Source: Bradyrhizobium sp. ORS 285
GTDB taxonomy: Bacteria; Pseudomonadota; Alphaproteobacteria; Rhizobiales; Xanthobacteraceae
Assembly (NCBI RefSeq): GCF_900176205.1
Contig: NZ_LT859959.1
Span: 5,105,001-5,169,000 of the forward strand
Reading direction: 5' to 3'
Length of the DNA: 64,000 bases
This document shows positions 14,602-51,325 of this stretch, in pieces (position 1 is the first letter of the stretch; each line of letters opens with the position of its first letter). A program made the translations under genes and the position numbers. The notes beneath the pieces were generated by a model. It was not told the origin of the DNA. It searched no databases and worked only from the letters and a program-made list of their open reading frames with translations.

Positions 14602-14779
14602 TGCAAAGTCTCGCTGCTTTTTCCGGGGCTGCTTTAGCCGGGATCGCAGGCGCGCGCCAGAGCAGCGGAACCGCCGCTCGAAGGTCGCCCTCCCCGGGAA
14701 AAGAACCTGTCCTGCCGGGACAAGCACCCTGGTATCTGTTTAAAGTCGCGCCAATTCGAGAACAAGGGAGCCGCGCCTC

Positions 14780-26670: not shown

Positions 26671-28048
<1,378 letters not shown>

Positions 28049-28052
<4 letters not shown>

Positions 28053-28288: not shown

Positions 28289-28291
28289 GGG

Positions 28292-29089: not shown

Positions 29090-29173
29090 GGATGCTCCCC
29101 TTACCTGCTCCGTTCCACCGCGCTGATCAGCGGCGGGCCGGCGGAGCTGGACGTTAGGGGGATCACCTCCCAT

Positions 29174-29205: not shown

Positions 29206-29340
29206 CTTTTTTGGATTGCCGAGCGACCACGCTTTGTGCGACGCAATTAATTAAGCCCTTGTTTTTGTTTCTTGAATCGTGCCGCCTGTTTGCGTTGCAG
29301 CGTGCACAAGGAATATTCGATTTGCTTTCCAAGAAAGAGA

Positions 29341-30282
29341 ATGGCTCTATCATCTGATATTCAGATGGAGCGTCGCGTGGCCGTCAGTCTTCGCCAAATC
29401 CGCTATTTCGTCGCCACGGCCGAGCAGGGCCAGATCACCCAGGCCGCCTCCGCGCTGTCGATCTCGCAATCTGCGATCACCACCTCGATCAAGGAGCTCG
29501 AGGAGATTGTCGGCGCCGAGCTGTTCAGCCGCTCGCCGCAGGGCATGGAGCTCACCCCCATCGGACGACAATTCCTGTTTCACGCCTACGACATCCTCAA
29601 CAAGGTCGAGGAAGCGACCTCGCTGCGCGTGCCCGCCGGCGACGTCGAGGGCAGCCTGACGCTCGCGGCCACCTACACCGTGATCGGCTACTTCCTGCCC
29701 AATCATCTCGAACGGCTGAAGCGCCATTATCCGCGGTTGAAGATCCAGTTGTTCGAGCTGACGCGCGAGGCGATCGAGGAAGGGCTGCTGTCGAACCGCT
29801 ACGACATCGCGGTGCTGCTGACGTCGAACGTGCAGAATCCGGACCTCACCATGGAGACGCTGATCGGCTCCCGGCGGCGGTTATGGGTGCCGTCGAAGCA
29901 CCGGCTGCTCCAACGCGAGTCTGTGTCGCTGCAGGACGTCGCCGCCGAGCCCTACATCATGCTGACGGTCGACGAGGCCGCACACACCTCGCTCAAATAC
30001 TGGAACAAGACGGCGTTTCAGCCAAACGTGGTGCTGCGGACGTCCTCGGTGGAAGCCGTGCGCTCGATGGTCGCGAACGGCCAGGGTGTCGCCATCCTCT
30101 CCGACATGGTGCTACGTCCGTGGTCGCTGGAGGGCCGGCGGATCGAGACCATCGTGCTCAGCGATCCCGTGCCGGCGATGGATGTCGGTCTCGCCTGGCG
30201 GCGAAACATCGAGTTCACCCCGGCCATGGAGGTGTTCCGCTCCTATTTCCGTCAGGCGTTCTATATCCCGACGCTGCGGTAG
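29341..30282 (+). CDS. LysR-type transcriptional regulator
   Basis: A 313-residue DNA-binding regulator. The N-terminal winged helix reads SLRQIRYFVATAEQGQITQAASALSISQSAITTSIKELE, followed by LFSRSPQGMELTPIG and a two-lobe effector domain (GSLTLAATYTVIGYFLPNHLERL). The ATG at 29341 follows an AAGAAAGAGA site; a later ATG at 29365 is possible. It is divergent from the LamB/YcsF-carboxylase operon, which is its most likely target. The enamidase gene starts 175 bp downstream but has its own palindromic operator. Confidence 0.9.
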   Translation: MALSSDIQMERRVAVSLRQIRYFVATAEQGQITQAASALSISQSAITTSIKELEEIVGAELFSRSPQGMELTPIGRQFLFHAYDILNKVEEATSLRVPAGDVEGSLTLAATYTVIGYFLPNHLERLKRHYPRLKIQLFELTREAIEEGLLSNRYDIAVLLTSNVQNPDLTMETLIGSRRRLWVPSKHRLLQRESVSLQDVAAEPYIMLTVDEAAHTSLKYWNKTAFQPNVVLRTSSVEAVRSMVANGQGVAILSDMVLRPWSLEGRRIETIVLSDPVPAMDVGLAWRRNIEFTPAMEVFRSYFRQAFYIPTLR

Positions 30283-30360: not shown

Positions 30361-30378
30361 TCATTCGTGTACGAATGA
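30361..30378. promoter_or_regulatory. 18-bp palindromic operator upstream of the enamidase gene
   Basis: TCATTCGTGTACGAATGA: perfect 8-bp arms (TCATTCGT/ACGAATGA) around GT, 79 bp before the enamidase start codon. A copy differing at two positions lies at 40412-40429 before the 6-hydroxynicotinate reductase gene. Size and symmetry fit a MarR-family site, and a MarR gene ends the reductase operon. Confidence 0.75.
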
Positions 30379-30456
30379 CCAGAACCGGCTTGATGCTGCG
30401 CCGCGTGCAGGCGCAACATGCCGCAAAATGCTTCGCCAGGAGAGAAGGACACCCCG

Positions 30457-31653
30457 ATGGCTCACGACGCGCCGCAAGCGACCGGTCCCAGCAAGCTGGT
30501 CATCCGCAACATCGGCTTGATGCTGTCAGGCGCGCTGGAACGGCCGATCCTGGATGCGGACACCATCGTCGCCGAGAACGGCAAGATCACCGCCATTGGC
30601 CGCTATAAGGATGTCGATACCTCGGGCGCGACCACCATCGTCGACGCCCATGGCACGACCGTCGCACCCGGCCTGATCGACAGCCACGTTCATCCCGTCG
30701 CCGGCGACTGGACGCCGCGGCAGAACCAGAGCAACTGGATCGACTCCTACCTGCATGGCGGCGTCACCACGATGATCTCCGCCGGCGAGGTGCACATGCC
30801 CGGCCGTCCGCGCGACGTCGTCGGCCTGAAGGCGATGGCGATCTTCGCGCAGCGCGCGTTCTGGACGCTGCGTCCCGGCGGCGTGAAGGTGCATGCGGGC
30901 GCGCCCGTGATCGAATGCGAGATGGTCGAGGACGACTTCAAGGAGCTCGCCGCCGCCGGCGTCAAGCTGCTCGGCGAGGTCGGTCTCGGCGGCGTCAAGG
31001 ACGGCCCGACCGCGCGCAAGATGGTCGGCTGGGCGCGCAAATACGGCATCCAGAGCACCATCCACACCGGCGGCCCGTCCATCCCCGGCTCCGGCCTGAT
31101 CGACAAGGACGTCGTGCTGGAAGCCGGCACCGACGTCATCGGGCACATCAATGGCGGCCACACTGCCCTGCCCGACGATCAGATCCGCTGCATCTGCGAG
31201 GGCTGCAAGGCCGGGCTCGAGCTGGTGCACAACGGCAATGAGCGCTCGGCGCTGTTTACGCTACGCACCGCGCGCGAGATGAACGAGCTCAACCGCGTCA
31301 TCCTCGGCACCGACGCCCCCGCCGGCTCCGGCGTGCAGCCGCTCGGCATCCTGCGCATGGTGTCGCTGCTGTCCTCGCTCGGCGACATCCCCGCGGAGAT
31401 CGCGTTCTGCTTCGCCACCGGCAACACCGCGCGGATGCGCGAGCTCGATTGCGGTTTGATCGAAGTGGGCCGCTCCGCCGACTTCGTCATCATGGACAAG
31501 GCGCAGCATTCGCCGGCGAAAACCCTGCTCGACAGCGTCCAGCTCGGCGACCTCCCGGGCATCGGCATGACCATCATCGACGGCATCGTCCGCACCCAGC
31601 GCAGCCGGAACACGCCGCCGGCAACGAAGATCCCGGAGATCGTGGCGAAGTAG
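30457..31653 (+). CDS. ena: enamidase (1,4,5,6-tetrahydro-6-oxonicotinate amidohydrolase)
   Basis: A 398-residue amidohydrolase. In Eubacterium barkeri nicotinate fermentation the enamidase opens 1,4,5,6-tetrahydro-6-oxonicotinate to 2-formylglutarate and ammonia. Visible parts: metal HxH at 77/79 (GLIDSHVHP), LLGEVGLGGVKDG, STIHTGG, DVIGHINGGHTALP, LGTDAPAGSGVQPLG. Assignment depends on this pattern plus the adjacent 6-hydroxynicotinate reductase and nicotinate dehydrogenase genes. AGGAGAG precedes the ATG at 30457. It is convergent with the marR-ending operon across 370 bp of repeats and carries its own palindromic operator. Confidence 0.85.
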   Translation: MAHDAPQATGPSKLVIRNIGLMLSGALERPILDADTIVAENGKITAIGRYKDVDTSGATTIVDAHGTTVAPGLIDSHVHPVAGDWTPRQNQSNWIDSYLHGGVTTMISAGEVHMPGRPRDVVGLKAMAIFAQRAFWTLRPGGVKVHAGAPVIECEMVEDDFKELAAAGVKLLGEVGLGGVKDGPTARKMVGWARKYGIQSTIHTGGPSIPGSGLIDKDVVLEAGTDVIGHINGGHTALPDDQIRCICEGCKAGLELVHNGNERSALFTLRTAREMNELNRVILGTDAPAGSGVQPLGILRMVSLLSSLGDIPAEIAFCFATGNTARMRELDCGLIEVGRSADFVIMDKAQHSPAKTLLDSVQLGDLPGIGMTIIDGIVRTQRSRNTPPATKIPEIVAK

Positions 31654-31700
31654 TTGCCCACGTCTCTCGACGCCGTGACTGCGAGTACAGTGTCTGTGAA

Positions 31701-31862
31701 TGCGCCCTCTCCCCTTGTGGGAGAGGGCATGTTGGACAGAGCAGCATACTCGGTTGGGTGAGGGGTTCTCAGCGCGAGCGTCACTCGCGGACAGGACCCC
31801 TCACCCAACCGCACGCATGGATGGGCCGTCGATGCCCTCTCCCACAAGGGGAGAGGGCGCTG
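31701..31862. repeat. large inverted pair of REP-like units
   Basis: The left unit GCCCTCTCCCCTTGTGGGAGAGGGCAT...GGTTGGGTGAGGGGT and the right unit ACCCCTCACCCAACC...GCCCTCTCCCACAAGGGGAGAGGGC are mirror images over more than 60 bp each with a short centre, so the whole stretch can fold into a long cruciform. Each unit also has its own hairpin. It separates the convergent enamidase and marR genes. Confidence 0.75.
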
Positions 31863-31909
31863 TATCTGACAGCCAATCACAACGACGCAATGAGTTTGGC
31901 GAAGAACTG

Positions 31910-32007
31910 TAGGGTGGGCAAAGCGGCGCCGTCAGGCGGCGCGTGCCCACCGTTGGCAGAGGTGGCCTTGGTGAGAATGGTGGGCACGCTTCGCTTTGCC
32001 CACCCTA
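31910..32007. repeat. 98-bp MITE-like element with 16-bp perfect terminal inverted repeats
   Basis: It begins TAGGGTGGGCAAAGCG (31910-31925) and ends CGCTTTGCCCACCCTA (31992-32007). The interior has GCGTGCCCACC and GGTGGGCACGC as further inverted arms. No coding capacity. Related GTAGGGTGGGCAAAG units are common in many proteobacterial genomes as far as I recall. It ends 19 bp from the marR stop codon. Confidence 0.7.
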
Positions 32008-32025
32008 CGAGAGCTGCCCGCTGGA

Positions 32026-32535
32026 CTACCGCAGCCGGCTCAACAACGACAGCAACGTCTCGCGCTCCTTCGCGTCCAGTGGCGCAAGTGTTCCCTTCGA
32101 TATCGCAAGCGCCAGGGGTGCGGTCTTTTCTGCGAGTTGTTGCCCTGCGCGCGTCAAGCTCACCAGCAGTCGCCGGCCGTCTTGCGGATCAGCGCTTGTC
32201 TCAGTGAGACCGCGCGCGGTCAGCCGATCGATCACGCCCTTGATGGTCGCGACATCCATCGCCGTGAGTCGCCCGAGCTGGTTCTGCGAGCACGGCCCCG
32301 TTTCGACCAGCTTGGACAGCGCCGCCCATTGGGTCGGCGTCAGGTTGCTGCCGATGTCGCGGGCGAAGATCATGGTGTGGCGCTGCCAGACCTGGCGCAG
32401 GATGAAGCCGATCTGGTCGTCCAGCACGTAGTTCGATTTGGCCGGCTTGGCGGCGGTCTTCACGACAGCTTTCGCCGGCTTCGGTGCAACCTTGGTCGCT
32501 TTTGTCGATCGCTTCAGCGCGGCCGTCTTCGCCAT
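32026..32535 (-). CDS. MarR-family transcriptional regulator with Lys/Ala-rich N-terminal tail
   Basis: A 169-residue regulator. Residues 1-35 are a basic Ala/Lys/Pro-rich tail (KATKVAPKPAKAVVKTAAK) unlike normal MarR proteins. The rest is a winged-helix MarR domain: LTPTQWAALSKLVETGPCSQNQLGRLTAMDVATIKGVIDRLTARGL, then DPQDGRRLLVSLT. It is the last gene of the reductase-transporter operon, 12 bp after livF, and is the natural candidate to bind the 18-bp palindromes at 30361 and 40412. In Pseudomonas putida the MarR protein NicR controls aerobic nicotinate genes with 6-hydroxynicotinate as effector, which makes such a role reasonable here. Confidence 0.88.
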   Translation of the reverse strand: MAKTAALKRSTKATKVAPKPAKAVVKTAAKPAKSNYVLDDQIGFILRQVWQRHTMIFARDIGSNLTPTQWAALSKLVETGPCSQNQLGRLTAMDVATIKGVIDRLTARGLTETSADPQDGRRLLVSLTRAGQQLAEKTAPLALAISKGTLAPLDAKERETLLSLLSRLR

Positions 32536-32547
32536 TGTCCCCTCGCC

Positions 32548-33252
32548 TCAGATCGACAGATGCGCGTCGCGGATATCCGGCCGCGCGTCAAGCTCGGCCA
32601 TGGTGCCGGCAAAGCAGATGCGGCCACGCTCGATGATATAGGCGCGATCCGAGATCAGCTTCGCGAAATGCAGGTTCTGCTCGGACACGACCAGCGACAC
32701 GCCTTCCTTTTTCATCGTCAGGATGGCATCAACCATCTGCTCGACGATCTTCGGCGACAGCCCCTCCGACGGCTCGTCGAGCAGCACCAGCGACGGATTG
32801 CCCATCAAGGTGCGGGCGATGGTCAGCATCTGCTGCTCGCCGCCGCTCATGCGTCCGCCCGGCCGGTTTCTCATCTCGCCGAGATTGGGAAACAGCTTGT
32901 ACAGCTTCTCGCGCGTCCATTGCGGCGCGCCCGGCCGCGGCTTCTGCCGGCCGACTTCGAGATTCTCCTCCACCGTCAGATCGGTGAAGATGCGCCGCTC
33001 CTCCGGCACGTAGCCGAGACCGGCTCGGACGATCTCATGCGTCGGCGCGCTCGAGATGTCCTTGCCTTCGAACATGATCTGCCCGTCGCGCAACGCGACG
33101 AGGCCGACGATCGAGCGGAAGGTCGTCGACTTGCCGGCGCCGTTGCGGCCGAGCAGTGCTACCACCTCGCCCTCGCCGACCTCCAGCCCGATATCGAACA
33201 GGATGTGCGCCGGGCCGTAATGGCTGTTCAGATTGGAAACGGACAGCTTCAT
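32548..33252 (-). CDS. branched-chain-type ABC transporter ATPase (LivF)
   Basis: A 234-residue ATPase of the LivF group: Walker A GRNGAGKST, signature MSGGEQQMLTIART, Walker B VLLDEPSEGL, plus the LivF-type VPEERRIFTDLTVEENL. It pairs with LivG, whose stop it overlaps by 4 bp. Part of the minus-strand nicotinate operon, so its substrate is expected to be nicotinate, 6-hydroxynicotinate or a related acid and not leucine. That is inferred from context only. Confidence 0.9.
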   Translation of the reverse strand: MKLSVSNLNSHYGPAHILFDIGLEVGEGEVVALLGRNGAGKSTTFRSIVGLVALRDGQIMFEGKDISSAPTHEIVRAGLGYVPEERRIFTDLTVEENLEVGRQKPRPGAPQWTREKLYKLFPNLGEMRNRPGGRMSGGEQQMLTIARTLMGNPSLVLLDEPSEGLSPKIVEQMVDAILTMKKEGVSLVVSEQNLHFAKLISDRAYIIERGRICFAGTMAELDARPDIRDAHLSI

Positions 33253-34040
33253 GCCGAGGCTCCCTCGCGATGCCGGGCATCGTACAGCAGGCCTTCGCCG
33301 AGATAGATCGCCTGTACCTCGCGGTTGGCGCGCACCTCGGCCGGCGAGCCCTGCGTGATCAGGCTGCCGCGGTTGAGCACGAGAATGCGGTCGGCATGCT
33401 CGAACACCACGTCCATGTCGTGCTCGGTGAACAATACGCCGATCGACTGCTCGCGCGCGATCTTCGCCGTCAGCCGCATCAGCTCGACACGCTCGCGCGG
33501 CGCCATGCCGGCGGTCGGCTCGTCCATCAACAACAGCTTGGGTTGATTGGCCAGCGCGATCGCGAGCTCCAGCCGCTTGAGATCGCCATAAGCCAGTTCG
33601 CCGCAGGGACGCTCGGCATAGCCGGCCATGCCGACGAGATCGAGCAGACGATCAGCTTCGCCGCGTTCGATGCCGATCATCGGGCTCCAGAAATCGAACA
33701 GCCGGCGATGGTGCGACACCAGCGCAACTTGAATGTTTTCGCGCACGGTCATGGTCGGGTAGGTCGCGGTGATCTGGAAGGTGCGCCCCACACCCAGCCG
33801 CCAGACTTCGCGCGGCTTGCGGCCGGTGGTCTCCTGCCCCATCACGGTGATGCGGCCGCTGTCCGGCACGTTCTGACCGTTGAGCATATCGAAGCAGGTG
33901 CTCTTACCCGCGCCGTTCGGGCCGATCAGCGCGAGGATCTCGCCGGCCTGCAGCATGAACGACACATTGCGTACGGCATGAATGCCGCCGTAGGATTTGG
34001 TCAGGCCCTCGACCGAGAGCAGCGATACACCGAGACTCAT
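33249..34040 (-). CDS. branched-chain-type ABC transporter ATPase (LivG)
   Basis: A 263-residue LivG-type ATPase: GPNGAGKSTCFDMLNG, GRTFQITATYPTMTVREN, LAYGDLKRLELAIALANQPKLLLMDEPTAGM, FTEHDMDVVFEHADR. The ATG at 34040 overlaps the permease stop by 4 bp. The frame continues open upstream inside the permease gene, but that extension is only shadow translation. Works with LivF, the LivHM fusion and the LivK-like binding protein. Confidence 0.92.
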   Translation of the reverse strand: MSLGVSLLSVEGLTKSYGGIHAVRNVSFMLQAGEILALIGPNGAGKSTCFDMLNGQNVPDSGRITVMGQETTGRKPREVWRLGVGRTFQITATYPTMTVRENIQVALVSHHRRLFDFWSPMIGIERGEADRLLDLVGMAGYAERPCGELAYGDLKRLELAIALANQPKLLLMDEPTAGMAPRERVELMRLTAKIAREQSIGVLFTEHDMDVVFEHADRILVLNRGSLITQGSPAEVRANREVQAIYLGEGLLYDARHREGASA

Positions 34041-35923
34041 TGCGCGCCCTCCATCTTCGCCGAGAGCGCCGCCGGCTTGGGCGCCGCCGCACGCCGCCGG
34101 TGCATGACGCTCTCGACGACGCCAACGATGCCCTTCGGGAACACCACGACGATCAGCACGACGAAGATGCCGAGTACGAGCTTCGACCAGTCGGTCTGGC
34201 TGACCAGCCAGATGTTGAGCGCCTTGTAGACGATGGCGCCGAAGATCGCGCCGGGCACCGTCTCGACTCCGCCGAGCAGCACCATGACCAGCGCATCGAC
34301 CGACAGCGAAATGCCCATGTTGTCCGGGAAGACGCTGCCCTTGAGATAGGCGAACAGCGCGCCGCCGATGCCGGCCGTGGTGCCGGCGATGATGAAGGCC
34401 GTCCACTGGATGCGCTTGCCGTTGATGCCGATGGACTCGCTGCGCAGCGGCGAGTCGCGCATGCCGCGCAGGGCGTAGCCGAACGGCGAGAAGGTGATGA
34501 GGCGCAGCACGCTGACGACGAAGGCGGAGACGCCGAGCGCGAGCCAGTAGAAATGCGACGGCGAGGCCGCCCACTTCTCCGGCCAGAGCCCGAGGATGCC
34601 GTTGTCGCCGCCAGTCACGGCGACCCATTGGAACGCGATCGACCAGACGATCTGGGCAAAGGCCAGCGTCAGCATCGCGAAGTACACGCCGGAGAGCTGC
34701 ACGGCGAAGGCCCCGAACACGGCCGCGCCCGCCGCACCCAACAGAGGTCCAAGCAACAGACAGGCGATCATCGGCAGTCCCGCCATCTTGGCGAGGAACG
34801 CGACGCCGTAGGCACCGAGGCCGAAATAGGCGGCGTGGCCGAACGAAGCGAGGCCGCCGACCGCCATGAGGAAGTGGAGGGAGGCGGCAAAGATCACGAA
34901 GATCGCGATCTCAGAGCCGACGGTCAGCGCGTAGTTGCCGGCAATGAAGGGCAGCATCGCGGCGAACGCCAGCGCGACCAGAGAGGCAAGACGCTCGACG
35001 GAGCTCAGCGGACGCCAGGGAATGACGGTGAGACCCGGCGTGCGGCGCGCCGGCGCCTCCTTCTTGCCGAACAGGCCCCAGGGGCGCACGACCAGCACGA
35101 CCGCCATCACCAGGAAGACCAGGATGAGCGAGATCGTCGGGAAGATCAGGATGCCGAAGGCGTTGAGCTCGGACACCAGCACCGCGGCGACGAAGGCGCC
35201 CAAAATGCTGCCGAGGCCGCCGATCACGACCACGACGAACACCTCGACGATGATGCGCAGGTCCATCGCGTGATGGACGGCATCACGCGGGATCTGCAGC
35301 GCGCCGCCGAGCGCGGCGAGGAAGACGCCAACCGCGAAGACCGAGGTGAACAGCCACTTCTGATTGACGCCGAGCGCCGCGACCATGTCGCGGTCCTGTG
35401 TCGCCGCGCGCACCAGGATGCCCCAGCGGGTACGCTGGAACAGCAGCCACAGCGCGCCGAGCACGACGGGCCCAAGCACGATCAGGAACAGGTCGTAGCT
35501 GGGAATGTTCTGGCCGAAGAAATCGACGGCGCCCTTGAAGCCCGGCGCACGGCGGCCGACGAGATCGTCGGGCCCCCAGATCAGCACGACGAGGTCCTCG
35601 ACCATCAACGTCAGGCCGAATGTCCCGAGCAATTGGAACAGCTCCGGCGCATGATAGATCCGGCGCAGCAGCACGATCTCGACCAGCACGCCGATCACGG
35701 CGACCGCAAGTGCGGCGACGACAATGCCGCCCCAAAAGCCGAGCGGACCGGACAGCCGCTCGGTCAGCGAGAACGCCACATAGGCGCCGAGCATGTAGAA
35801 CGCGCCGTGCGCAAAATTCACGATGCGGGTGACGCCAAAGATGATCGACAGTCCCGACGCCACCAGGAACAGCGAAGCCGCGCTGGCAAGGCCGGTCAGG
35901 AACTGGACGAAGTAAAAGGCCAT
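34037..35923 (-). CDS. fused branched-chain-type ABC permease (LivH-LivM fusion)
   Basis: A 628-residue inner-membrane protein that joins both permease subunits in one chain. Residues 1-290 are LivH-like (SGLSIIFGVTRIVNFAHGAFYMLGAY, VVVIGGLGSILGAFVAA). After a hydrophilic linker (ARRTPGLTVIPWRPL), residues about 310-628 are LivM-like (GGLASFGHAAYFGLGAY, MRDSPLRSESIGINGKRIQWTAFIIAG, GGVETVPGAIFGA). Start at the ATG at 35923. It is followed with 4-bp overlap by livG. A 180-bp gap with a REP-like unit separates it from the binding-protein gene. Confidence 0.92.
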   Translation of the reverse strand: MAFYFVQFLTGLASAASLFLVASGLSIIFGVTRIVNFAHGAFYMLGAYVAFSLTERLSGPLGFWGGIVVAALAVAVIGVLVEIVLLRRIYHAPELFQLLGTFGLTLMVEDLVVLIWGPDDLVGRRAPGFKGAVDFFGQNIPSYDLFLIVLGPVVLGALWLLFQRTRWGILVRAATQDRDMVAALGVNQKWLFTSVFAVGVFLAALGGALQIPRDAVHHAMDLRIIVEVFVVVVIGGLGSILGAFVAAVLVSELNAFGILIFPTISLILVFLVMAVVLVVRPWGLFGKKEAPARRTPGLTVIPWRPLSSVERLASLVALAFAAMLPFIAGNYALTVGSEIAIFVIFAASLHFLMAVGGLASFGHAAYFGLGAYGVAFLAKMAGLPMIACLLLGPLLGAAGAAVFGAFAVQLSGVYFAMLTLAFAQIVWSIAFQWVAVTGGDNGILGLWPEKWAASPSHFYWLALGVSAFVVSVLRLITFSPFGYALRGMRDSPLRSESIGINGKRIQWTAFIIAGTTAGIGGALFAYLKGSVFPDNMGISLSVDALVMVLLGGVETVPGAIFGAIVYKALNIWLVSQTDWSKLVLGIFVVLIVVVFPKGIVGVVESVMHRRRAAAPKPAALSAKMEGAQ

Positions 35924-35992
35924 GGGCGGTCCGCGTGAAGAGATCGTCTGTGTCGAATGAGCCGCGTGGAAGCTTGCATGATGAGCCGCAAG

Positions 35993-36080
35993 CGTGGGGT
36001 GAGGGTCCTCGGCCTGAACCTGTAGATCAGGCGTCAAAATCCCTCACCCCGCCCGCTCTCCTCCGCGGGAGGAGGAGGCA
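35993..36080. repeat. REP-like palindrome inside the transporter operon
   Basis: GTGGGGTGAGGG (35994-36005) and CCCTCACCCC (36041-36050) are inverted arms, followed by a CTCTCCTCCGCGGGAGGAGG hairpin. It lies between the binding-protein stop and the permease start. Such a hairpin after a binding-protein gene can protect the upstream mRNA and lower downstream expression, giving excess binding protein. Confidence 0.6.
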
Positions 36081-36103
36081 GGAAGGCGTCGAGAACGCGT
36101 GGC

Positions 36104-37306
36104 TCAGTCCTTTGGACGGAGCTTGGCGACGTCCGCGTCGCTCGGGAGATAGTCCGAGCCCTTGCGGTAGACGGTGTCGACCATGATGCCCTTGCCGTCC
36201 TTCAGCGCGGTCTTGCCGACGAAGGCGCCGAGCGTCGACTGGTGGTCGTTCTTGCGGAAGGTGATCTCGCCGAACGGCGACGGCACGGAGAGCCCTTCCG
36301 CGGCGGCGATCAGCTTGTCGGCATCGGTCGAGCCGGCCTTGGCGAGAATGGCGGCCGCCGACTTGATGGTCTGGTAGCCGACGATCGAGCCGAGGCGCGG
36401 ATAGTCGTTGTACTTGGCCTGATAGGCCTTCAGGAACGCGTCATGCTCGGGCGTCTTGATCGAGTACCAGGGATAGCCGGTGACGATCCAGCCTTCCGGC
36501 GTCTCGTCCTTGAGCGGATCGAGATATTCCGGCTCGCCGGTCAGGAAGCTGACGACCTTGCGATCCTTGAACAGGCCGCGGGTGTTGCCCTCGCGGACGA
36601 GCTTCACGAGGTCGGCGCCGAAGGTGACGTTGAGGATCGCTTCCGGATTGGCGGCGGCAACGGCCTGTACGACAGGACCAGCGTCGATCTTGCCCTGCGG
36701 CGGCCACTGCTCGTCGACCCACTGGATGTCCGGGCGCTTCTCCGACAAGAGCTTCTTGAACACGGCAACGGCCGACTGGCCATACTCGTAGTTCGGCGCG
36801 ATCGTCGCCCAGCGCTTGGCGGGCAGCTTGGCGGCTTCCTCGACCAGCATCGCGGCCTGCATGTAGTTCGAGGGACGCAGGCGGAAGGTGTATTTGTTGC
36901 CCTTCGACCAGGTTATGGCGTCGGTCAGCGGTTCGGCCGCCAGAAAGAACACCTTCTTCTGGTTGGCGAAGTCGCTGACGGCAAGCCCGATGTTCGACAG
37001 GAAGGTGCCCGCGAGCATCGCGACGTTCTCGCTCGACACCAGCTCGTTGGCCGCGGTCTGGGCGTCGGCCGGCTTGCCGCTGTCGTCCTTGGAGACGACG
37101 ACGAGCTTCTTGCCGTTGATGCCGCCGGCCGCATTGACCTCCTCGACCGCGAGCTGCCAACCCTTGCGGTAGGGCTCGGTGAAGGCCGGCAGCAGCGAGT
37201 AGCTGTTGATCTCGCCGATCTTGATGACGTCCTCGGCGCGAGCCGCGCCCGCCAGTCCCGCGACGGCAAGGCCCAAGCCTGCCGCAAGCATCGTTCTCCG
37301 TCGCAT
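36104..37306 (-). CDS. LivK-type periplasmic substrate-binding protein
   Basis: A 400-residue exported binding protein of the branched-chain amino acid/aromatic acid type. A signal peptide starts RRRTMLAAGLGLAVAGLAGAARA. The mature part has IKIGEINSYSLLPAFTEPYRKGWQLAVEEVNAAGGINGKKL, SSENVAMLAGTFLSNIGLAVSDFA, and GSIVGYQTIKSAAAILAKAGS. GGAGG lies 8 bp before the ATG at 37306. Proteins of this family bind amino acids, amides or aromatic carboxylates; in this operon a pyridine carboxylate is the best guess. Confidence 0.9.
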   Translation of the reverse strand: MRRRTMLAAGLGLAVAGLAGAARAEDVIKIGEINSYSLLPAFTEPYRKGWQLAVEEVNAAGGINGKKLVVVSKDDSGKPADAQTAANELVSSENVAMLAGTFLSNIGLAVSDFANQKKVFFLAAEPLTDAITWSKGNKYTFRLRPSNYMQAAMLVEEAAKLPAKRWATIAPNYEYGQSAVAVFKKLLSEKRPDIQWVDEQWPPQGKIDAGPVVQAVAAANPEAILNVTFGADLVKLVREGNTRGLFKDRKVVSFLTGEPEYLDPLKDETPEGWIVTGYPWYSIKTPEHDAFLKAYQAKYNDYPRLGSIVGYQTIKSAAAILAKAGSTDADKLIAAAEGLSVPSPFGEITFRKNDHQSTLGAFVGKTALKDGKGIMVDTVYRKGSDYLPSDADVAKLRPKD

Positions 37307-37340
37307 CCCTTCAGCCTCCAGTTTTGATTTCACTATTCTT

Positions 37341-37389
37341 GAGCATGCTCTTGTCGGAAAACCGGTACCCACTTTTCCGGAGCATGCTC
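37341..37389. repeat. 49-bp complex palindrome (GAGCATGCTC ends)
   Basis: It starts and ends with the self-complementary GAGCATGCTC (37341-37350 and 37380-37389), with inner arms CGGAAAA/TTTTCCG. It fits exactly between the DUF1185 gene stop (37392) and the livK ribosome site. I recognise near-identical units (GAGCATG...CGGAAAACCG...TTTTCCGG) as dispersed in Rhizobiales intergenic DNA. Intra-operon position suggests an RNA-processing or attenuation role. Confidence 0.7.
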
Positions 37390-37391
37390 GA

Positions 37392-37976
37392 TTATCGTAG
37401 ACCGTCGTCGCCCTTGATTTCAGCGACCGTGAGCCCGCCGACCCGCGGAAGCGGACGCCCGCTGTCGGTGACGGCGAGCGCGACCATGATCTCGTTGGCG
37501 CGCGGCGCATCGTTGATCTGCACCTCCATGCCGTCGAAATGACTGCGCACGAAGGCGGCGTCCTTGTGCCCCAACGGAATGTCGAGCGTGCAACCGACGC
37601 CGCCGCGCTTCTTCGAAGACGGGATCAGCGCCGCGCCCTTGCCGAGCACCTTGCGCACCGGCGCGCCCATCTTCGGATGCAGGATCGCCGCGGCATGCTC
37701 CAGCTCGCCGTCGCTGCCGACGGCGGCGGCCTTGCCGTAGCTGTGCGCGGCGGGCCCTTCGATTCCGAGTGCTGCGACCGCGCGCTTCGCCAGCATCTCG
37801 CCGAGTTCCTCGCCGATCGCGATCAGCGGCGAGAGATCCTCGACATAGCGGCCGGCGAACGGGTTCTCGATCACGGCGACCGCCGCGGCGCGGCGCGTCG
37901 GCGGCGAGACGGCCTTGCCCATCTCGTGATGGACTTCTTCGACCACGGTCACGATCTTGCGGATGACGGCGCTCAT
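37392..37976 (-). CDS. amino acid synthesis family protein (DUF1185)
   Basis: A 194-residue protein of the DUF1185/'amino acid synthesis' family (RKIVTVVEEVHHEMG, AAVAVIENPFAGRYVEDLSPLIAIGEELGEML, AHSYGKAAAVG..GELEHAAAILHPKMGAPVRKVLGKGAALIPSSKKRG). Its biochemical role is not known to me; the family name comes from genome annotation. It lies between the UPF0280 gene (42-bp gap) and livK in the nicotinate operon, so a step or accessory function in pyridine breakdown is likely. Start chosen at the ATG at 37976. Confidence 0.8.
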   Translation of the reverse strand: MSAVIRKIVTVVEEVHHEMGKAVSPPTRRAAAVAVIENPFAGRYVEDLSPLIAIGEELGEMLAKRAVAALGIEGPAAHSYGKAAAVGSDGELEHAAAILHPKMGAPVRKVLGKGAALIPSSKKRGGVGCTLDIPLGHKDAAFVRSHFDGMEVQINDAPRANEIMVALAVTDSGRPLPRVGGLTVAEIKGDDGLR

Positions 37977-38018
37977 CGTCGGCAGTTCCTCATGTTCCTG
38001 TCCATCACGGATCAAACC

Positions 38019-38906
38019 TCACGCCGCCGCCGCCCGCAACCGCGACGGATTGACGATTTCGATCGGGCGCGGACCGACGACGCGGATGGCCCCGCCAAGC
38101 TGGAGGACCGCGCCTTCGATCAGGCCAGCCGCCAGCAGGGCCCGCGCAGAGCACTCGCCCGACGTCAGGGCCGTCCCTACATCAGTATCGCTGAGGTCGC
38201 CGACCTCGCGTGTGACGAGCCGCTGACCGAGGTCGCTGTCCGGCTGAAGTTCGCAGGCCGGACGGCGGATGACGGCGGGATGGCCGGGCAGATCCACCGC
38301 GTTGCCGATGACGGTCGCCGCGGCGTCTGCCTGCGCGGCGGTTTTGGCCAGCACCGTGACAGCATCGGCGATGCCGAGCGAAAAGCTGCGGCCGTGACGG
38401 CCGGACGTGGCAACGCCGCCGATTTCGTCGTTCGCGCGCAACGTCATTCGGCGCATGGTTCCGGCGCTGTCCGGCCGATCCATCAGCCCCACGCTGAACG
38501 TCGCGGCGTCGCGCAAATGCAGCGCGATATCGCCGCCATTGTTGACATAGGCGCGTGTCAGTTTCGCCTTGCTCACCATCGCGCCGAGGATTTCTTCCGC
38601 CACCGCACCAGCGACCGCCGCCATCGGCGTGATGAACATCTCGGCCGCAAACGGCGCCACAGCTGCATGCATGCGACGGGCAACGACACCGTTCAGCGAA
38701 CAAAAATCCAGGTCGGCGGCCTTGCGCAGCTCCCGCAGTTCCGAACAGAGCTCATCGAGCAGACCCGTAAAGCGCCCCGCGGCAGCCTGATAAGCGGCGC
38801 GGATCTCGGCCTCCGGACCGTCAGCGCCGATGATCAGATCGATCGGGCCGTCCTGCAAATGCAGCCGCCGATCCGACAACAGCGCGATCTGAGGCTGACG
38901 GCTCAT
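38019..38906 (-). CDS. UPF0280 family protein (ApbE-like fold)
   Basis: A 295-residue protein of the UPF0280 family, which is structurally related to ApbE flavin transferases (established, to my knowledge, from structural genomics). Typical stretches: ADLDFCSLNGVVARRMHAAVAPFAAEMFITPMAAVAGAVAEEIL, RAYVNNGGDIALHL, GGVATSGRHGRSFSLGIADAVTVLA. The last two resemble the ApbE NxGGD and SG..GR..SHGI..A motifs. The ATG at 38906 overlaps the stop of the reductase gene (ATGA). Since E. barkeri 6-hydroxynicotinate reductase holds covalently bound flavin, a role in loading that flavin is inferred. Confidence 0.85.
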   Translation of the reverse strand: MSRQPQIALLSDRRLHLQDGPIDLIIGADGPEAEIRAAYQAAAGRFTGLLDELCSELRELRKAADLDFCSLNGVVARRMHAAVAPFAAEMFITPMAAVAGAVAEEILGAMVSKAKLTRAYVNNGGDIALHLRDAATFSVGLMDRPDSAGTMRRMTLRANDEIGGVATSGRHGRSFSLGIADAVTVLAKTAAQADAAATVIGNAVDLPGHPAVIRRPACELQPDSDLGQRLVTREVGDLSDTDVGTALTSGECSARALLAAGLIEGAVLQLGGAIRVVGPRPIEIVNPSRLRAAAA

Positions 38907-40351
38907 GCGCCCTGTCCCGGCCAAGGCAACTGGCGGATATCCTTGCTGACATCCTTCAACGACGCGAGCGGCTGGACGTAGTCCATGTGGCCGCCGAGCG
39001 CCTCATAGTCCGACAGCTTCATCGTGAATTCGATCGGCGCCACCAGCGCCGGCGTCGGCACATAGCCGAATGCGCCCGCCGGCATCTGCGTCACGTCGAC
39101 CATGTAGGTGATGCCGCCGCCCGGCCAGACATAGACCGGCGCGCCGCCCGAGGTGACGCGCGTCAGCGCATCCTTGACCGAGCGCGTCAGCCGCACAGGA
39201 TTGTCGGTGACCCCTGCGCGCAGCGAACCGCCGGCGCCGGCCATGAAAAGAACCGTACACAGCGCCGGCTCGCAATTCTCCTGAATGCGATCGACCGAGA
39301 ACTGCAGCTCCGGAGGCATCTCGCGCTGCACCGGCTTAAGCGTTTCATCGAGCACGTAGTAACCGGCATGCTCGCCGGTGGTCGACACCATCAGCAGAGT
39401 CGTCCCGGGCTTCGCCGTCTTCGGATCGAACGGCCCGAGAATCGACAGCGGATCGGAAATGTCGGTGCCACCCCAGCCGGTGCCGGGCTGCGCGACCTGG
39501 AAATACCGGCCCGGCGTCGAACGCCGGCCCTTCATCTTGATCCCCGTCGAGGGAATGTCGAGCAGCTTGCCGGCCTGGTGCTCCGACAGCACCCCCGTGA
39601 TGTGGTCGTCGACCACGACGACCTCGTCGACCTTGCCCTGCCACTGCTTGGCGAACATGCCGATCGTGGCCGAGCCGCAGCCGACGCGCATGCGCTCTTC
39701 CTTGACGCCGTTGACGATCGGAGGCTGCCCAGCCTGCACGATCACGCTGGCGCCGCCGTCGATGGTGAGCTCGACCGCCTTTCGGTTGCTGAGATCCATC
39801 AGCGCGTCGCAGGTGACGCGCCCCTCCTTCTTCGACCCGCCGGTGAGGTGGTGCACGCCACCGAGCGACAGCATCTGCGAGCCGTATTCGCTGGTCGTGA
39901 CGTGCCCCACGGCCTCACCGTCGACACGCACGGTCGCCGCTTCCGGCCCGAGATAGCGATCGGTGTCGATCTTCACCTTCACGCCGCAATAGCTGAAGAT
40001 GCCTTCGGTCACGACGGTGACCATGTCGACGCCTTCCACCTGCGACGACACGATGAACGGCGCAGGCTTGTAGTCTGGATAGGTCGTGCCGGCTCCGATC
40101 GCGGTGACGAACAGCTCCGGCTGATGCACGATCTTGCCGTCCCAGTCGCCGCTCGCCTGGAACAGCACAAGCTTGCCGCCATGGGAGACGGTGCGCTCCA
40201 GCAGGATGTGCGGATCGACGCGCACCAGCACGCCGTCCTGATTGGCGTAGCGATCGCACGCGCCCGCCGCGCCCGGCTTGATGTAGCACATCACCGGACA
40301 GGCATCGCAGCGGATCTTGTCCCCTGCAGCGTCGCTCGCCGTCTCAGTCAT
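38903..40351 (-). CDS. hnr: 6-hydroxynicotinate reductase
   Basis: A 482-residue iron-sulfur flavoprotein. In E. barkeri it reduces 6-hydroxynicotinate to 1,4,5,6-tetrahydro-6-oxonicotinate. The N-terminus has a CxxCxxxC..C cluster motif with Cys15, 18, 22 and 32 (IRCDACPVMCYIKPG..GACDRY). Other Cys that may serve clusters occur in SYCGVKV, RVGCGSAT and ENCEPALC. Tandem ATGs at 40354 and 40351; the second gives MTETASD. First gene of an eight-gene minus-strand operon, divergent from the nicotinate dehydrogenase genes, with an 18-bp palindrome about 60 bp upstream. Confidence 0.88.
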   Translation of the reverse strand: MTETASDAAGDKIRCDACPVMCYIKPGAAGACDRYANQDGVLVRVDPHILLERTVSHGGKLVLFQASGDWDGKIVHQPELFVTAIGAGTTYPDYKPAPFIVSSQVEGVDMVTVVTEGIFSYCGVKVKIDTDRYLGPEAATVRVDGEAVGHVTTSEYGSQMLSLGGVHHLTGGSKKEGRVTCDALMDLSNRKAVELTIDGGASVIVQAGQPPIVNGVKEERMRVGCGSATIGMFAKQWQGKVDEVVVVDDHITGVLSEHQAGKLLDIPSTGIKMKGRRSTPGRYFQVAQPGTGWGGTDISDPLSILGPFDPKTAKPGTTLLMVSTTGEHAGYYVLDETLKPVQREMPPELQFSVDRIQENCEPALCTVLFMAGAGGSLRAGVTDNPVRLTRSVKDALTRVTSGGAPVYVWPGGGITYMVDVTQMPAGAFGYVPTPALVAPIEFTMKLSDYEALGGHMDYVQPLASLKDVSKDIRQLPWPGQGA

Positions 40352-40411
40352 CATGCGGAGAAGCCCATCCTGGAGCGGTGGCAGCGGCCGTCGCCAGCAC
40401 GCCACGGCAAT

Positions 40412-40429
40412 TCGTTCGTATACGAATGA
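40412..40429. promoter_or_regulatory. 18-bp palindromic operator in the hnr/nicotinate dehydrogenase divergent region
   Basis: TCGTTCGTATACGAATGA matches the site at 30361 at 16 of 18 positions, and its core TTCGTATACGAA is a perfect palindrome. It sits about 60 bp before hnr and 210 bp before the dehydrogenase small-subunit gene, so it fits best with control of hnr but could affect both. Confidence 0.75.
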
Positions 40430-40638
40430 TGTCGCGCCGCTTCGCCGACTGTCAAGCGCCGCCGCGAGCGAAAAGCAGGTTTGCCGGATAATCGATCAGT
40501 TTGCCCTGCACAATGGCGACAAATCGTGCACACGCTGCAATGCGAAACGCGGTACTTGCATGTTAGTACACAAACGATAGGCTCCGGTCGACGCGATCGC
40601 ATCCTCGTTAACAATATCATAGCGGACGACAGAAGGGC

Positions 40639-41121
40639 ATGACGCGAGCTCCGATTCGGCTGACCGTGAACGGACAGACGCATGACGTCGCCGCCGCGCC
40701 GGACACGCCCCTGCTCAACGTGCTGCGCAACGACCTCGCTCTGAACGGCCCGAAATACGGCTGCGGCCTCGGCGAGTGCGGCGCGTGCACCGTGCTGATC
40801 GACGGCCGCGCCGCGCGCTCCTGCGTCATCCCGATCGAAGGCTGCGCCGGCCGCAGCGTCACCACACTGGAAGGGCTCGGCTCGCGCGAAACACCAGATC
40901 CAGTGCAGCAGGCCTTCATCGCCGAGCAGGCCGCCCAATGCGGCTATTGCCTGAACGGCATGATCATGACGACCAAGGCGCTGCTGGCGATCAAGCCCGA
41001 TCCGTCGCTCGACGAGATCAAGCAGGCGCTGCGCTACAATCTCTGCCGCTGCGGCGCCCATGTCGAAATTCTCCGCGCGGCGATGCGCGCGGCCGGCCAC
41101 ACGCTCGAGGCGCTGGACTGA
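40639..41121 (+). CDS. nicA: nicotinate dehydrogenase, [2Fe-2S] subunit
   Basis: A 160-residue small subunit of the xanthine dehydrogenase family carrying two [2Fe-2S] clusters: plant-ferredoxin type GCGLGECGACTVLIDGRAARSC and the C-terminal type QCGYCLNGM...LCRCGAH. It passes electrons from the molybdenum centre to the cytochrome part of its partner. AGAAGGGC precedes the ATG. Its stop overlaps the large-subunit start by one base (TGATG). Assignment to nicotinate comes from the partner's architecture and the adjacent hnr; isoquinoline 1-oxidoreductase-type enzymes share the same fold. Confidence 0.85.
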   Translation: MTRAPIRLTVNGQTHDVAAAPDTPLLNVLRNDLALNGPKYGCGLGECGACTVLIDGRAARSCVIPIEGCAGRSVTTLEGLGSRETPDPVQQAFIAEQAAQCGYCLNGMIMTTKALLAIKPDPSLDEIKQALRYNLCRCGAHVEILRAAMRAAGHTLEALD

Positions 41122-44100
41122 TGACCGAGCGCCTCACTCCCACGGCCGATGATCCGCGCGGCATGCTGAGCATCGAGCGCCGCGTTGCCGACGGCTCGTC
41201 CGAAACCTTCATCAGAATCACTGCGGCCGGCGAGGTCTCGGCCTTCAACGGGCACGTCGATCTCGGCACCGGCATTCGCACCGCCCTGGGACAGATCGTC
41301 GCAGAAGAGCTCGACGTCTCGTTCGCGCGTGTGGTGGTCGTGCTCGGCGATACCGCCGTCGTGCCCAACCAGGGCGCAACGATCGCCAGCGAGACCATCC
41401 AGATCACCGCGGTGCCGCTGCGCAAGGCGGCGGCGCAGGCGCGCGCGTTTCTGCTGGCGCGGGCTGCGGTGCAGCTCGGCCTTGCCGTCGAGGATCTGAC
41501 CGTCGAGGACGGCCTGGTTCGCGGCCCCAACAATCGCGTACTCAGCTACGGCGAGCTGATCGGCAACGACACCATCCGCCTCGAATTGGCCGAAGATGTC
41601 GCCGTCAAATCCGTCGACAACTATCAGGTCGTCGGCCGCTCAGTGCCGCGCGTCGACCTGCCGGCGAAAGCGACCGGCGAGCCGACTTACGTCCATGACG
41701 TGCGCGTTCCCGGCATGCTGCATGGCCGCGTCGTGCGTCCGCCGTATGTCGGCGTCGATGCCGGTCCCTTCATCGGCACAAGCCTGATCGGCGTCGACAA
41801 GGACTCCGTACGCGACGTGTCCGGCCTGGTCGACATCGTCGTAATCGGTGATTTCATCGGCGTCGTCGCCGAGCGCGAGGAGCAGGCGATCCTTGCCGCC
41901 GAGCGCCTCCAGGTGAACTGGAAGCCGGTGCCAACGTTGCGCGATCTTGACGACGTCGAGAACGCGCTACGCGCCAATCCGTCCGAACCTCGCCGGCTGC
42001 TCGACAAAGGCAACGTCGATGCCGCCATCGAAGGCGCCGCGAAGCCGATGCGGCGGACCTATCTGTGGCCGTATCAGATGCACGGCTCGATCGGGCCGTC
42101 CTGCGCGGTCGCCGATGTTCGCGACGGCCACATCCGCATCTATTCGGGGACGCAGAACCCGCACCTCCTGCGCGCCGATCTCGCCAAGCTGATCGACTGC
42201 CCCGAGCACCAGATCGAGCTGATCCGGTTGGAGGCCGCCGGCTGCTACGGCCGTAATTGCGCCGATGACGTCACCGCCGATGCGCTGCTGCTGTCGCGCG
42301 CGGTCGGCCGTCCCGTGCGCGTGCAGCTCACGCGCGAGCAGGAGCATGTGTGGGAGCCGAAGGGCACCGCGCAGCTGATGGACGTCAATGGCGGCCTCAA
42401 TGCCGACGGCTCGGTGGCGGCCTATGAGTTCGCCACCCGCTATCCCTCGAACGGCGCGCCGACCCTAGCGCTGCTGCTGACGGGACGCATCGCGCCGGAG
42501 CCGGCCGTGTTCGAGATGGGCGACCGCACGGCGATCCCACCTTACGATTATGACCATATGCGCGTGACTGCGCATGACATGCCGCCGATCGTCCGCGCCT
42601 CCTGGATCCGCGGCGTCTCGGCGCTGCCCAACACCTTTGCGCACGAATCCTATATCGACGAGCTCGCCGCCGAGGCGGAGGTCGATCCGATCGAATACCG
42701 GCTGCGCTATCTGAAGGACGAACGCGCGCGCGACCTCGTCAACGCCGTCGCCGAGCGCGCCAGCTGGACGCCGCGCCCGGTGCGCCAGGAGAAGACGCCC
42801 GAGAATGGCGTCGTGCACGGCCGCGGGTTCGCCTACGCGCTTTACGTCCACAGCAAGTTTCCCGGCTACGGCGCGGCTTGGTCGGCGTGGATCGCCGACG
42901 TCGCCGTCAACACCACGACCGGCGACGTCAGCGTCACGCGCGTGATCGCCGGCCAGGATTCCGGCCTGATGATCAATCCGGACGGCGTGCGCCATCAGAT
43001 CGAAGGCAACGTCATCCAGTCGACCAGCCGGGCGCTGATGGAGGAGGTCCCCTTCTCCCGCGGCAAGGTGGCGGCACGGGAATGGGGCGCCTATCCGATC
43101 ATCACTTTCCCCGACGTGCCCAAGATCGACGTGCTGATGCTGCCGCGGCCGGACCAGCCGCCGCTCGGCGTCGGCGAGTCCGCGTCAGTACCGAGCGCCG
43201 CCGCGATCGCCAATGCGGTCTATGACGCCACCGGCGTGCGCTTCCGCGAGCCGCCATTCACGCCGGAGCGCATCCTGAAAGGTCTGCGCGGCGAACAGCT
43301 CGAGCCAGCCAAGCCACAGCCGCTGCCCGCGCCGGACAAGCCCGCGGCCACTTGGATCAAGCCTTTCGCCAGGCGCGGCGGCCTTATCGCCAGCGCGGTT
43401 GCGGCCTGTGCCGCGGCCATCGGTGTCGCGACGGCCGTGCTGCCGTGGCGCGCCATCGCACCGATCACCCGTCCCGATCCCTCGGTCTATTCCGCAGCGA
43501 CCATCGCACGCGGCGAGTCGCTCGCGGCGCTCGGCAATTGCGCTGTCTGCCACACCTCCGATGGCGGCTTGATCAATGCCGGCGGCCGCGCGCTGGAGAC
43601 GCCGTTCGGCACGATCTTCAGCACCAACATCACGCCCGACGTCGAGACCGGTATCGGCGCGTGGTCCTATCCGGCCTTCGAGCGCGCGATGCGCGAGGGC
43701 GTGCATCGCGACGGCCGGCAGCTCTATCCGGCGTTCCCCTACACTCATTTCGCGCGCACCAGCGACGCCGATCTGCAGGCGCTCTACGCCTATCTGATGG
43801 CGCAGTCGCCCGTGCGGCAACAGACGCCTGACAATGCACTGCGCTTCCCATTCAACCTGCGGCCGCTGGTTGCCGGCTGGAATGCGCTGTTTCACAGTAC
43901 TGAAACCTTCAAGCCCGATCCGACCCGATCCGAGCAGTGGAATCGCGGCTTCTATCTGGTCGAGAGCCTCGGCCATTGCAGCGCCTGCCACTCGCCAAGA
44001 AATGCGCTCGGCGCCGAGCAGCGCGATGCCTATCTCGCTGGCGGCTTCGCCGACGGCTGGGAAGCGCCGGCGCTCACCGCGCTCTCTTCAGCGCCGATCC

Positions 44101-44660
44101 CGTGGACCGAGGACGAACTCGCCATCTATCTCCGCACCGGCCAGTCGCGCTTCCACGGCGTGACCGCCGGACCGATGGCGCCGATCGTCAAGGATCTCGC
44201 CACGCTGCCCGATGCGGATATCCGCGCGATGGCGACCTATCTTGCTTCATTTCAGCAGACGGCACCCGAGCCGGCAAAGCTGGAAGCGATCGCCAGGGAG
44301 TTGGAAACACGGACGAAGGTGACCTCCGCGTCGTCTCCCGCCGCGCGGCTCTATCTCGGCGCCTGCGCCGTGTGTCACGAAGTCGGCGGACTGCCGCTGT
44401 TCGGCAGCCGGCCGTCGCTCGCGCTCAACAGCAATCTGCACAGCGCCACGCCTGACAATCTGATCCAGGTGATCCTGCACGGCATCATGAAGCCGGCCTC
44501 CTCCGACCTCGGCTACATGCCGGCGTTCAAGGACCATCTGAGCGACGCGCAGCTCGCCGAGCTCGTCTCCTATCTCCGAGGTCAGTTCGCCCCGGACAAG
44601 CCGGCCTGGACCGACGTGGATGCCGCCGTCAGCCGCATCCGGTCGGCCACGCCGCATTGA
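41121..44660 (+). CDS. nicB: nicotinate dehydrogenase, molybdopterin/tri-haem cytochrome c subunit
   Basis: A 1179-residue fusion. Residues 1-725 are the molybdopterin part: an N-terminal VDLGTGIRTALGQIVAEEL segment, a hammerhead domain (GEPTYVHDVRVPGMLHGRVVRPP), and the catalytic Glu686 in LGVGES. A single membrane segment follows at about 753-782. The C-terminal 400 residues hold three CxxCH haem-c sites, at Cys807 (CAVCH), Cys953 (CSACH) and Cys1082 (CAVCH). This is the layout of Pseudomonas NicB, which hydroxylates nicotinate at C6 and sends electrons to the respiratory chain. The ATG at 41121 is coupled to the small subunit. Substrate inferred from architecture and neighbours. Confidence 0.88.
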   Translation: MTERLTPTADDPRGMLSIERRVADGSSETFIRITAAGEVSAFNGHVDLGTGIRTALGQIVAEELDVSFARVVVVLGDTAVVPNQGATIASETIQITAVPLRKAAAQARAFLLARAAVQLGLAVEDLTVEDGLVRGPNNRVLSYGELIGNDTIRLELAEDVAVKSVDNYQVVGRSVPRVDLPAKATGEPTYVHDVRVPGMLHGRVVRPPYVGVDAGPFIGTSLIGVDKDSVRDVSGLVDIVVIGDFIGVVAEREEQAILAAERLQVNWKPVPTLRDLDDVENALRANPSEPRRLLDKGNVDAAIEGAAKPMRRTYLWPYQMHGSIGPSCAVADVRDGHIRIYSGTQNPHLLRADLAKLIDCPEHQIELIRLEAAGCYGRNCADDVTADALLLSRAVGRPVRVQLTREQEHVWEPKGTAQLMDVNGGLNADGSVAAYEFATRYPSNGAPTLALLLTGRIAPEPAVFEMGDRTAIPPYDYDHMRVTAHDMPPIVRASWIRGVSALPNTFAHESYIDELAAEAEVDPIEYRLRYLKDERARDLVNAVAERASWTPRPVRQEKTPENGVVHGRGFAYALYVHSKFPGYGAAWSAWIADVAVNTTTGDVSVTRVIAGQDSGLMINPDGVRHQIEGNVIQSTSRALMEEVPFSRGKVAAREWGAYPIITFPDVPKIDVLMLPRPDQPPLGVGESASVPSAAAIANAVYDATGVRFREPPFTPERILKGLRGEQLEPAKPQPLPAPDKPAATWIKPFARRGGLIASAVAACAAAIGVATAVLPWRAIAPITRPDPSVYSAATIARGESLAALGNCAVCHTSDGGLINAGGRALETPFGTIFSTNITPDVETGIGAWSYPAFERAMREGVHRDGRQLYPAFPYTHFARTSDADLQALYAYLMAQSPVRQQTPDNALRFPFNLRPLVAGWNALFHSTETFKPDPTRSEQWNRGFYLVESLGHCSACHSPRNALGAEQRDAYLAGGFADGWEAPALTALSSAPIPWTEDELAIYLRTGQSRFHGVTAGPMAPIVKDLATLPDADIRAMATYLASFQQTAPEPAKLEAIARELETRTKVTSASSPAARLYLGACAVCHEVGGLPLFGSRPSLALNSNLHSATPDNLIQVILHGIMKPASSDLGYMPAFKDHLSDAQLAELVSYLRGQFAPDKPAWTDVDAAVSRIRSATPH

Positions 44661-46468: not shown

Positions 46469-46476
46469 GGCCGGCG

Positions 46477-47352: not shown

Positions 47353-47366
47353 CGGAGATTTTTGGC

Positions 47367-49510: not shown

Positions 49511-49523
49511 TATTTTGAACGTC

Positions 49524-51322: not shown

Positions 51323-51325
51323 TGA

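Follow-up and report, generated by a model that had tools for sequence, protein, structure and literature searches.

Which pathway is encoded where an enamidase (Ena), a 6-hydroxynicotinate reductase (Hnr) and a cytochrome-linked NicA/NicB-type dehydrogenase lie together, and what does the UPF0280 protein, whose frame overlaps hnr, contribute to it? This question is raised by a 64,000-nucleotide stretch of Bradyrhizobium sp. ORS 285 (bases 5105001-5169000 of a 7.8-Mb single-contig genome), referred to here as the window. We consider it very probable that the cluster is an aerobic reductive nicotinate cluster of the Azorhizobium type, and that UPF0280 is a dedicated partner of Hnr, most likely acting in Hnr maturation. 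What is new and useful here is how strictly UPF0280 is paired with Hnr. All genes named in an initial annotation of this DNA proved to be open frames where it had placed them (Table 1). UPF0280, an AA_synth protein, a branched-chain-type ATP-binding cassette (ABC) importer and a MarR-type regulator lie within the same coordinates and were not mentioned in it.

The overlap of the UPF0280 and hnr frames is 4 bases if UPF0280 starts with the ATG at 38906 (ATGA at the hnr stop), and 22 bases if it starts with the TTG at 38924. Among the best 80 of at least 404 related loci found by Hnr in genome contigs, UPF0280 was matched in 78 and directly followed hnr in 77; in L046 it lay about 8 kb away. Hnr was present in 44 of 289 alphaproteobacterial genomes (the window's own included), and the UPF0280 family NF003322 was matched in the same 44, at E 1.1e-39 or better. 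Forty-two of these matches were above the cut-off, and those below it, in G064 and G087, were each split over two contigs. In a second sample of 299 genomes of the phylum, which has four Hnr genomes in common with the first, Hnr and UPF0280 occurred in the same 21. Taken together, 61 of the 61 distinct Hnr genomes had a strong UPF0280 match, and no Hnr-less genome of either sample had one. Weak matches in four further genomes of the first sample and one of the second (G099, G109, G121, G143 and G758; E 4.6e-7 to 6.5e-4, all below the cut-off) were left uncounted, and imperfect Hnr sequences in G028 (two frames) and G231 (part) were still counted. With weak matches scored as absent, Fisher's test gave 4e-53 and 1e-32 for the two samples, values that are not true probabilities, because genomes are related and adjacent genes move together. 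Sampling of Acidobacteriota yielded a single genuine Hnr, from the genome that served as its centre, and eight weak N-terminal Hnr matches (E 1.6e-4 to 9.0e-4), which were not counted.

Where both genes were on one contig (42 of the 44 genomes), they were spaced by 9-156 bp; in G231 and G087 they were scored on different contigs, though a further piece in G087 adjoins hnr. In G028 (C1:2969814-2971252), Hnr is spread over two frames that overlap, as though the gene were split or frame-shifted, next to an intact UPF0280. The same pairing was seen in a search of 72,556 plasmids, 26 of which carried Hnr and 27 UPF0280, including all 26. The plasmid with UPF0280 but no Hnr hit is Hydrogenophaga pBPS33-1, in which UPF0280 occurs at four places; the stretch L168:11573-46919 of this plasmid contains three near-identical IS1071-associated units, each with UPF0280 and a tail of hnr (57% over 30 residues, E 1.8e-5). 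Five of 120 listed Hnr proteins exceed 560 residues, and one of them, P0065, reads as an Hnr-UPF0280 fusion, on a single contig in which a frame error is possible.

Since the two genes lie side by side, co-transfer alone would link UPF0280 to hnr, and UPF0280 could be a mere passenger. This is very improbable in our view, as UPF0280 was retained in every Hnr genome of the two samples, was kept in L039, where the stretch lacks the other cluster genes, and was kept in L046 despite its distance from hnr. That UPF0280 and Hnr are functionally linked seems to us highly probable.

The identities of the neighbouring enzymes point to the pathway in which this pair would act. Ena is 46% identical to the E. 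barkeri enamidase (PDB 2vun) over 384 ungapped residues, and the enamidase motifs are conserved in it. At E <= 1e-5, Hnr had no match among the Pfam and NCBIfam families, nor did any PDB sequence match it at E <= 1. It belongs to a large, conserved family (all 8000 scored candidates were homologous), and the named entries among 120 listed homologues were called 6-hydroxynicotinate reductase or hypothetical protein. In a 26-member alignment with a mean column identity of 76%, the N-terminal Cys 15, 18, 22 and 32 were invariant, and so were Cys 181, 225 and 360; in Comamonadaceae Hnr, with the alignment read by eye, Cys 181 is replaced by Val. A GCV_T_C match, below the cut-off for the window Hnr, was seen in 25 of the 26 members at E <= 10. 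We also considered Hnr as a DUF39-like protein and rejected this, as it had no such Pfam match. NicA and NicB contain [2Fe-2S], molybdopterin and cytochrome c domains, divided between a [2Fe-2S] subunit and a molybdenum subunit with three haem motifs (CxxCH at NicB residues 807, 953 and 1082), and their homologues are annotated nicA/nicB in L116 and L117. A hydrophobic segment near NicB residues 755-774 separates its two parts, so that the active site may lie in the cytosol and the cytochrome in the periplasm. The enamidase, the reductase and the tri-haem dehydrogenase were all correctly recognized in the initial annotation.

With these enzymes, nicotinate would be taken up by the ABC importer and converted by NicA/NicB to 6-hydroxynicotinate, the electrons probably passing through the cytochrome c part of the enzyme to respiration. 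Hnr would then reduce the ring to 1,4,5,6-tetrahydro-6-oxonicotinate, and Ena would open it to yield ammonia and 2-formylglutarate, with later steps to glutarate and glutaryl-CoA presumably encoded elsewhere. This order of intermediates, proposed in the initial annotation, is supported by homology and conserved clustering. The proposed novelty of a haem-linked first step joined to enzymes of the anaerobic type did not hold up. The Ena and Hnr families are common to the window and the fermentation of E. barkeri; unlike the window, E. barkeri uses a four-subunit dehydrogenase containing flavin adenine dinucleotide (FAD) and a fermentative lower pathway. P. putida NicA/NicB have the same [2Fe-2S] plus molybdenum-cytochrome subunits, a likeness of architecture rather than the result of a direct sequence comparison, and P. 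putida continues via the oxidative nic pathway, unlike the window. The Azorhizobium route is said to begin with a membrane-bound, cytochrome-linked hydroxylase, followed by reduction, decarboxylation and formation of glutarate. Moreover, the same cluster was already described in A. caulinodans, B. japonicum USDA110, R. palustris HaA2 and Bradyrhizobiaceae strain SG-6C (PMC3511419, Shettigar 2012, as far as its accessible part goes), so that the combination cannot be regarded as new.

According to the accessible part of the same paper, SG-6C degrades nicotinate with the transient appearance of 6-hydroxynicotinate, and the Hnr of its cluster is 42% identical to that of E. barkeri (PMC3511419). 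For both E. barkeri and Azorhizobium, the available text of PMC9304392 describes a reduction that gives tetrahydro-oxonicotinate and a ring opening that gives (S)-2-formylglutarate. As in the Azorhizobium-type clusters, hnr, ena and the nicotinate dehydrogenase are clustered in the window, together with an ABC transporter and two conserved proteins of unknown function, presumably the two meant in that paper. The window differs from the clusters as depicted in that part of PMC3511419 in having LysR and 5-oxoprolinase-type genes beside ena and in having no match to ferredoxin-NADP reductase. Nicotinate is proposed as the substrate from the genes alone, and the cluster is flanked by other hydantoinase, oxoprolinase and DUF917-type genes, as if another N-heterocycle could be degraded. 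We consider that highly unlikely, since Ena retains the enamidase motifs and the same cluster is found in SG-6C, which degrades nicotinate, and in Azorhizobium (PMC3511419, accessible part).

UPF0280 is remotely similar to ApbE flavin transferases: the ApbE profile of Pfam was matched at 26.8 bits (cut-off 25.6) over positions 124-207 of 266, and hhalign aligned 96 columns with a probability of 74 and E 2.7e-5. The similarity lies in the C-terminal part, in which TSG and ADAxxT are present. The Hnr of E. barkeri reportedly carries a covalent flavin in addition to Fe-S clusters. In view of both, UPF0280 may flavinylate or otherwise mature Hnr, perhaps by fixing the covalent flavin; flavin transfer as its actual role is a tentative but quite possible assignment.

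Several observations weigh against these proposals. The His region of ApbE aligns to a gap in UPF0280, so that nothing in it corresponds to the catalytic His (His257 in V. cholerae ApbE; PMC12052999, accessible part). The ApbE target motif D-x-x-[S/T]-G-A-[S/T] was found in 0 of 80 Hnr frames, and the window's genome has two ordinary ApbE matches besides UPF0280. According to the accessible part of PMC5764234, other authors saw no flavin-binding region of the ApbE type in COG2122, the broader family of UPF0280, which speaks against flavin transfer. In L042 and L058, UPF0280 was not found even by profile in the stretches, as distinct from the whole genomes. Co-occurrence and adjacency are in themselves no proof of maturation. 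The structure model of Hnr was of low confidence (predicted local distance difference test score 54), too weak for a structure search. Hnr is identified through its annotated homologues rather than by direct comparison with E. barkeri Hnr, and likewise the class of NicA/NicB is suggested by their domains and the annotated L116 and L117 rather than by direct comparison with P. putida NicB.

Maturation could instead proceed by sulfur or persulfide delivery or by Fe-S cluster assembly, as was proposed for COG2122 acting with DUF39. In D. vulgaris, homocysteine synthesis needs COG2122 together with DUF39, and a persulfide role was suggested (PMC5764234, accessible part). The reported lack of the ApbE flavin-binding region would fit such a role, and so would the invariant Cys 181, 225 and 360 of Hnr, the first of them with the exception noted above for Comamonadaceae. 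However, no similarity was detected between DUF39 and Hnr, and the ApbE likeness of UPF0280 extends to the TSG and ADAxxT positions, and we regard sulfur or cluster assembly as rather unlikely. UPF0280 belongs to the same broad family as the COG2122 proteins of Desulfovibrio and methanogens, and it matches PDB 2o34 at E 9.9e-9. There, the partner is DUF39 (PMC5764234, accessible part), whereas DUF39 (PF01837) was found in 0 of the 289 genomes, the window's own included, and in 3 of 14 control genomes. On this evidence, we rejected DUF39 as the partner of UPF0280 here. The literature searched mentions COG2122 and does not mention UPF0280 by name.

The enzymes on either side of Hnr proved to vary. 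In a set of 86 loci (the 80 relatives plus six annotated plasmids), with modules scored by tblastn, hnr was combined with interchangeable modules for the first step and for ring opening. Gene context was taken from the annotated plasmid records, and clustering by longest frames, misleading in GC-rich DNA, was dropped. Ena was accompanied by a cytochrome-type dehydrogenase in 31 loci and by an FAD type in 14, and the hydantoinase-type HyuA/HyuB by the cytochrome type in 8 and the FAD type in 2. In the other 31, one or both modules were missing from the stretch (cytochrome type only, 11; FAD type only, 6; Ena only, 1; Hyu only, 1; neither, 12). HyuA/HyuB took the position of the enamidase in L115, L116, L117, L119, L120, L065, L072-L075 and L077. 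Ena and a HyuA of at least 45% never occurred together; L118 has Ena with a HyuA at 42%. A rapidly built tree with 58 Hnr sequences, in which support was not seen, implied at least five changes of dehydrogenase type and at least two of the opener. Among the six genomes with HyuA/HyuB clusters, five had weak enamidase matches alone, and the sixth, G786, has a 58% match elsewhere. HyuA of at least 80% was present in all six and in none of four enamidase genomes (best 42%).

From this distribution, we infer that HyuA/HyuB may open the reduced ring in rhizobial clusters. The records of L115 and L117 label these proteins acetophenone carboxylase subunits, and the terms nicotinic acid, 6-hydroxynicotin- and hydantoinase were not found together in the literature searched. 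Combined with flavin transfer, this gives a broader reading, in which UPF0280 is a cytosolic, ApbE-derived protein whose altered active site attaches flavin to Hnr at a novel target motif and which is obligatory for ring reduction, COG2122 modifies redox partners generally, and rhizobial, ATP-dependent HyuA/HyuB replaced the enamidase; taken as a whole, it is rather doubtful. In aerobes, the electrons for Hnr may come from a ferredoxin-NADP reductase, which was matched in 39 of the 86 loci; it adjoins hnr in L119 and L120 and, for instance, ena in L003. The marine clusters L118, L119 and L120 have a gene for the alpha-subunit of an aromatic ring-hydroxylating dioxygenase near the importer.

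The AA_synth protein (PF06684) was matched in 75 of the 80 loci, with two copies in 31 of the 43 loci outside L001-L036 and L076. En route to glutarate, Azorhizobium loses the C-7 carboxyl, and AA_synth might catalyse a later step of this kind, such as decarboxylation of 2-formylglutarate. Against this, it was missing in 5 of the 44 genomes with Hnr and occurred in 17 that lack Hnr, and we consider such a role improbable. The same counts (39 of 44, plus the 17) rule out that AA_synth is as strictly linked to Hnr as UPF0280. SPO0826 (PDB 2qtp) closely resembles the window protein; a role in amino-acid metabolism was argued for it, in part because a branched-chain-type transporter is encoded nearby (PMC2954203, accessible part). 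As the neighbouring transporter is here presumably the nicotinate importer, the name "amino acid synthesis" is probably wrong for PF06684 members of such clusters.

Two genes outside the cluster had been named in the initial annotation in connection with the later steps. The glutaryl-CoA dehydrogenase is genuine, as indicated by its match to PDB 3gnc; it stays below all NCBIfam cut-offs (glutaryl-CoA model, 226 of 470 bits) and neighbours a RibBA-like frame (13525-14727). In 3 of the 80 loci (L039, 83%; L074, 71%; L075, 91% over 91 residues at the stretch edge), a close homologue (71-91%) lay within the stretch analysed around hnr, and for that reason the window enzyme may serve a later nicotinate step. 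The ALDH7 aldehyde dehydrogenase at 54704-56248 passed the cut-off for L-piperidine-6-carboxylate dehydrogenase (810 bits, cut-off 730), and on this ground we rejected it as a formylglutarate-type enzyme.

Table 1. Genes of the cluster and a possible later-step gene in the window, with predicted functions.
Feature	Position	Strand	Evidence and remarks
Glutaryl-CoA dehydrogenase, possible later step	12246..13460	-	PDB 3gnc E 9.5e-187; ~17 kb from ena
LysR-type regulator	29272..30282	+	PF03466, PF00126; upstream of ena
Ena, enamidase, predicted to open tetrahydro-oxonicotinate	30457..31653	+	PDB 2vun E 4.5e-109
MarR-type regulator, NicR-like by neighbour annotation	32026..32535	-	PF01047; homologues annotated nicR in L115, L117
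Importer ATP-binding proteins (two)	32548-33252, 33249-34013	-	PF00005, PF12399; second start chosen by eye
Importer fused branched-chain-type permease	34037-35923	-	PF02653; start chosen by eye
Importer substrate-binding protein	36104..37366	-	PF13458 E 1.4e-69; start chosen by eye
AA_synth (PF06684, DUF1185)	37392..38015	-	PF06684 E 4.3e-76; PDB 2qtp E 2.2e-82
UPF0280 (COG2122), proposed Hnr maturation partner	38019..38924	-	NF003322 424 bits, cut-off 290
Hnr, 6-hydroxynicotinate reductase	38903..40351	-	Family by homologues
NicA-type [2Fe-2S] subunit	40639..41121	+	PF01799, PF00111
NicB-type molybdopterin and tri-haem cytochrome c subunit	41121..44660	+	PF20256, PF02738, PF00034, PF13442

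Genes for 5-oxoprolinase-type PxpB/PxpC, a biotin carboxylase and PxpA (24833-29173, minus strand) adjoin LysR and ena; among the 80 loci, homologues of LysR (by tblastn) and PxpA were near ena in L002 and L076 only. Downstream of nicB (44811-52879, plus strand) lie an IclR regulator, polyamine-type ABC transporter genes, AroM, S-Me-THD (DUF917) and hydantoinase A, which possibly form a second heterocycle cluster. By Hnr, the nearest named relatives among the matches listed were Bradyrhizobium STM 3809 and strain 83002 (98% each).

As a cluster, the locus extends a pathway already described to one further genome. If HyuA/HyuB is confirmed in place of the enamidase, it would represent a second way of opening the reduced ring. 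Homocysteine synthesis in anaerobes also depends on the UPF0280/COG2122 family, whose chemistry is not known; the pairing with Hnr gives a close and testable handle on this family, whose partner here is an enzyme said to carry a covalent flavin. If the proposed function is true, the partners of COG2122 would be Hnr in nicotinate users and the DUF39 system in anaerobes.

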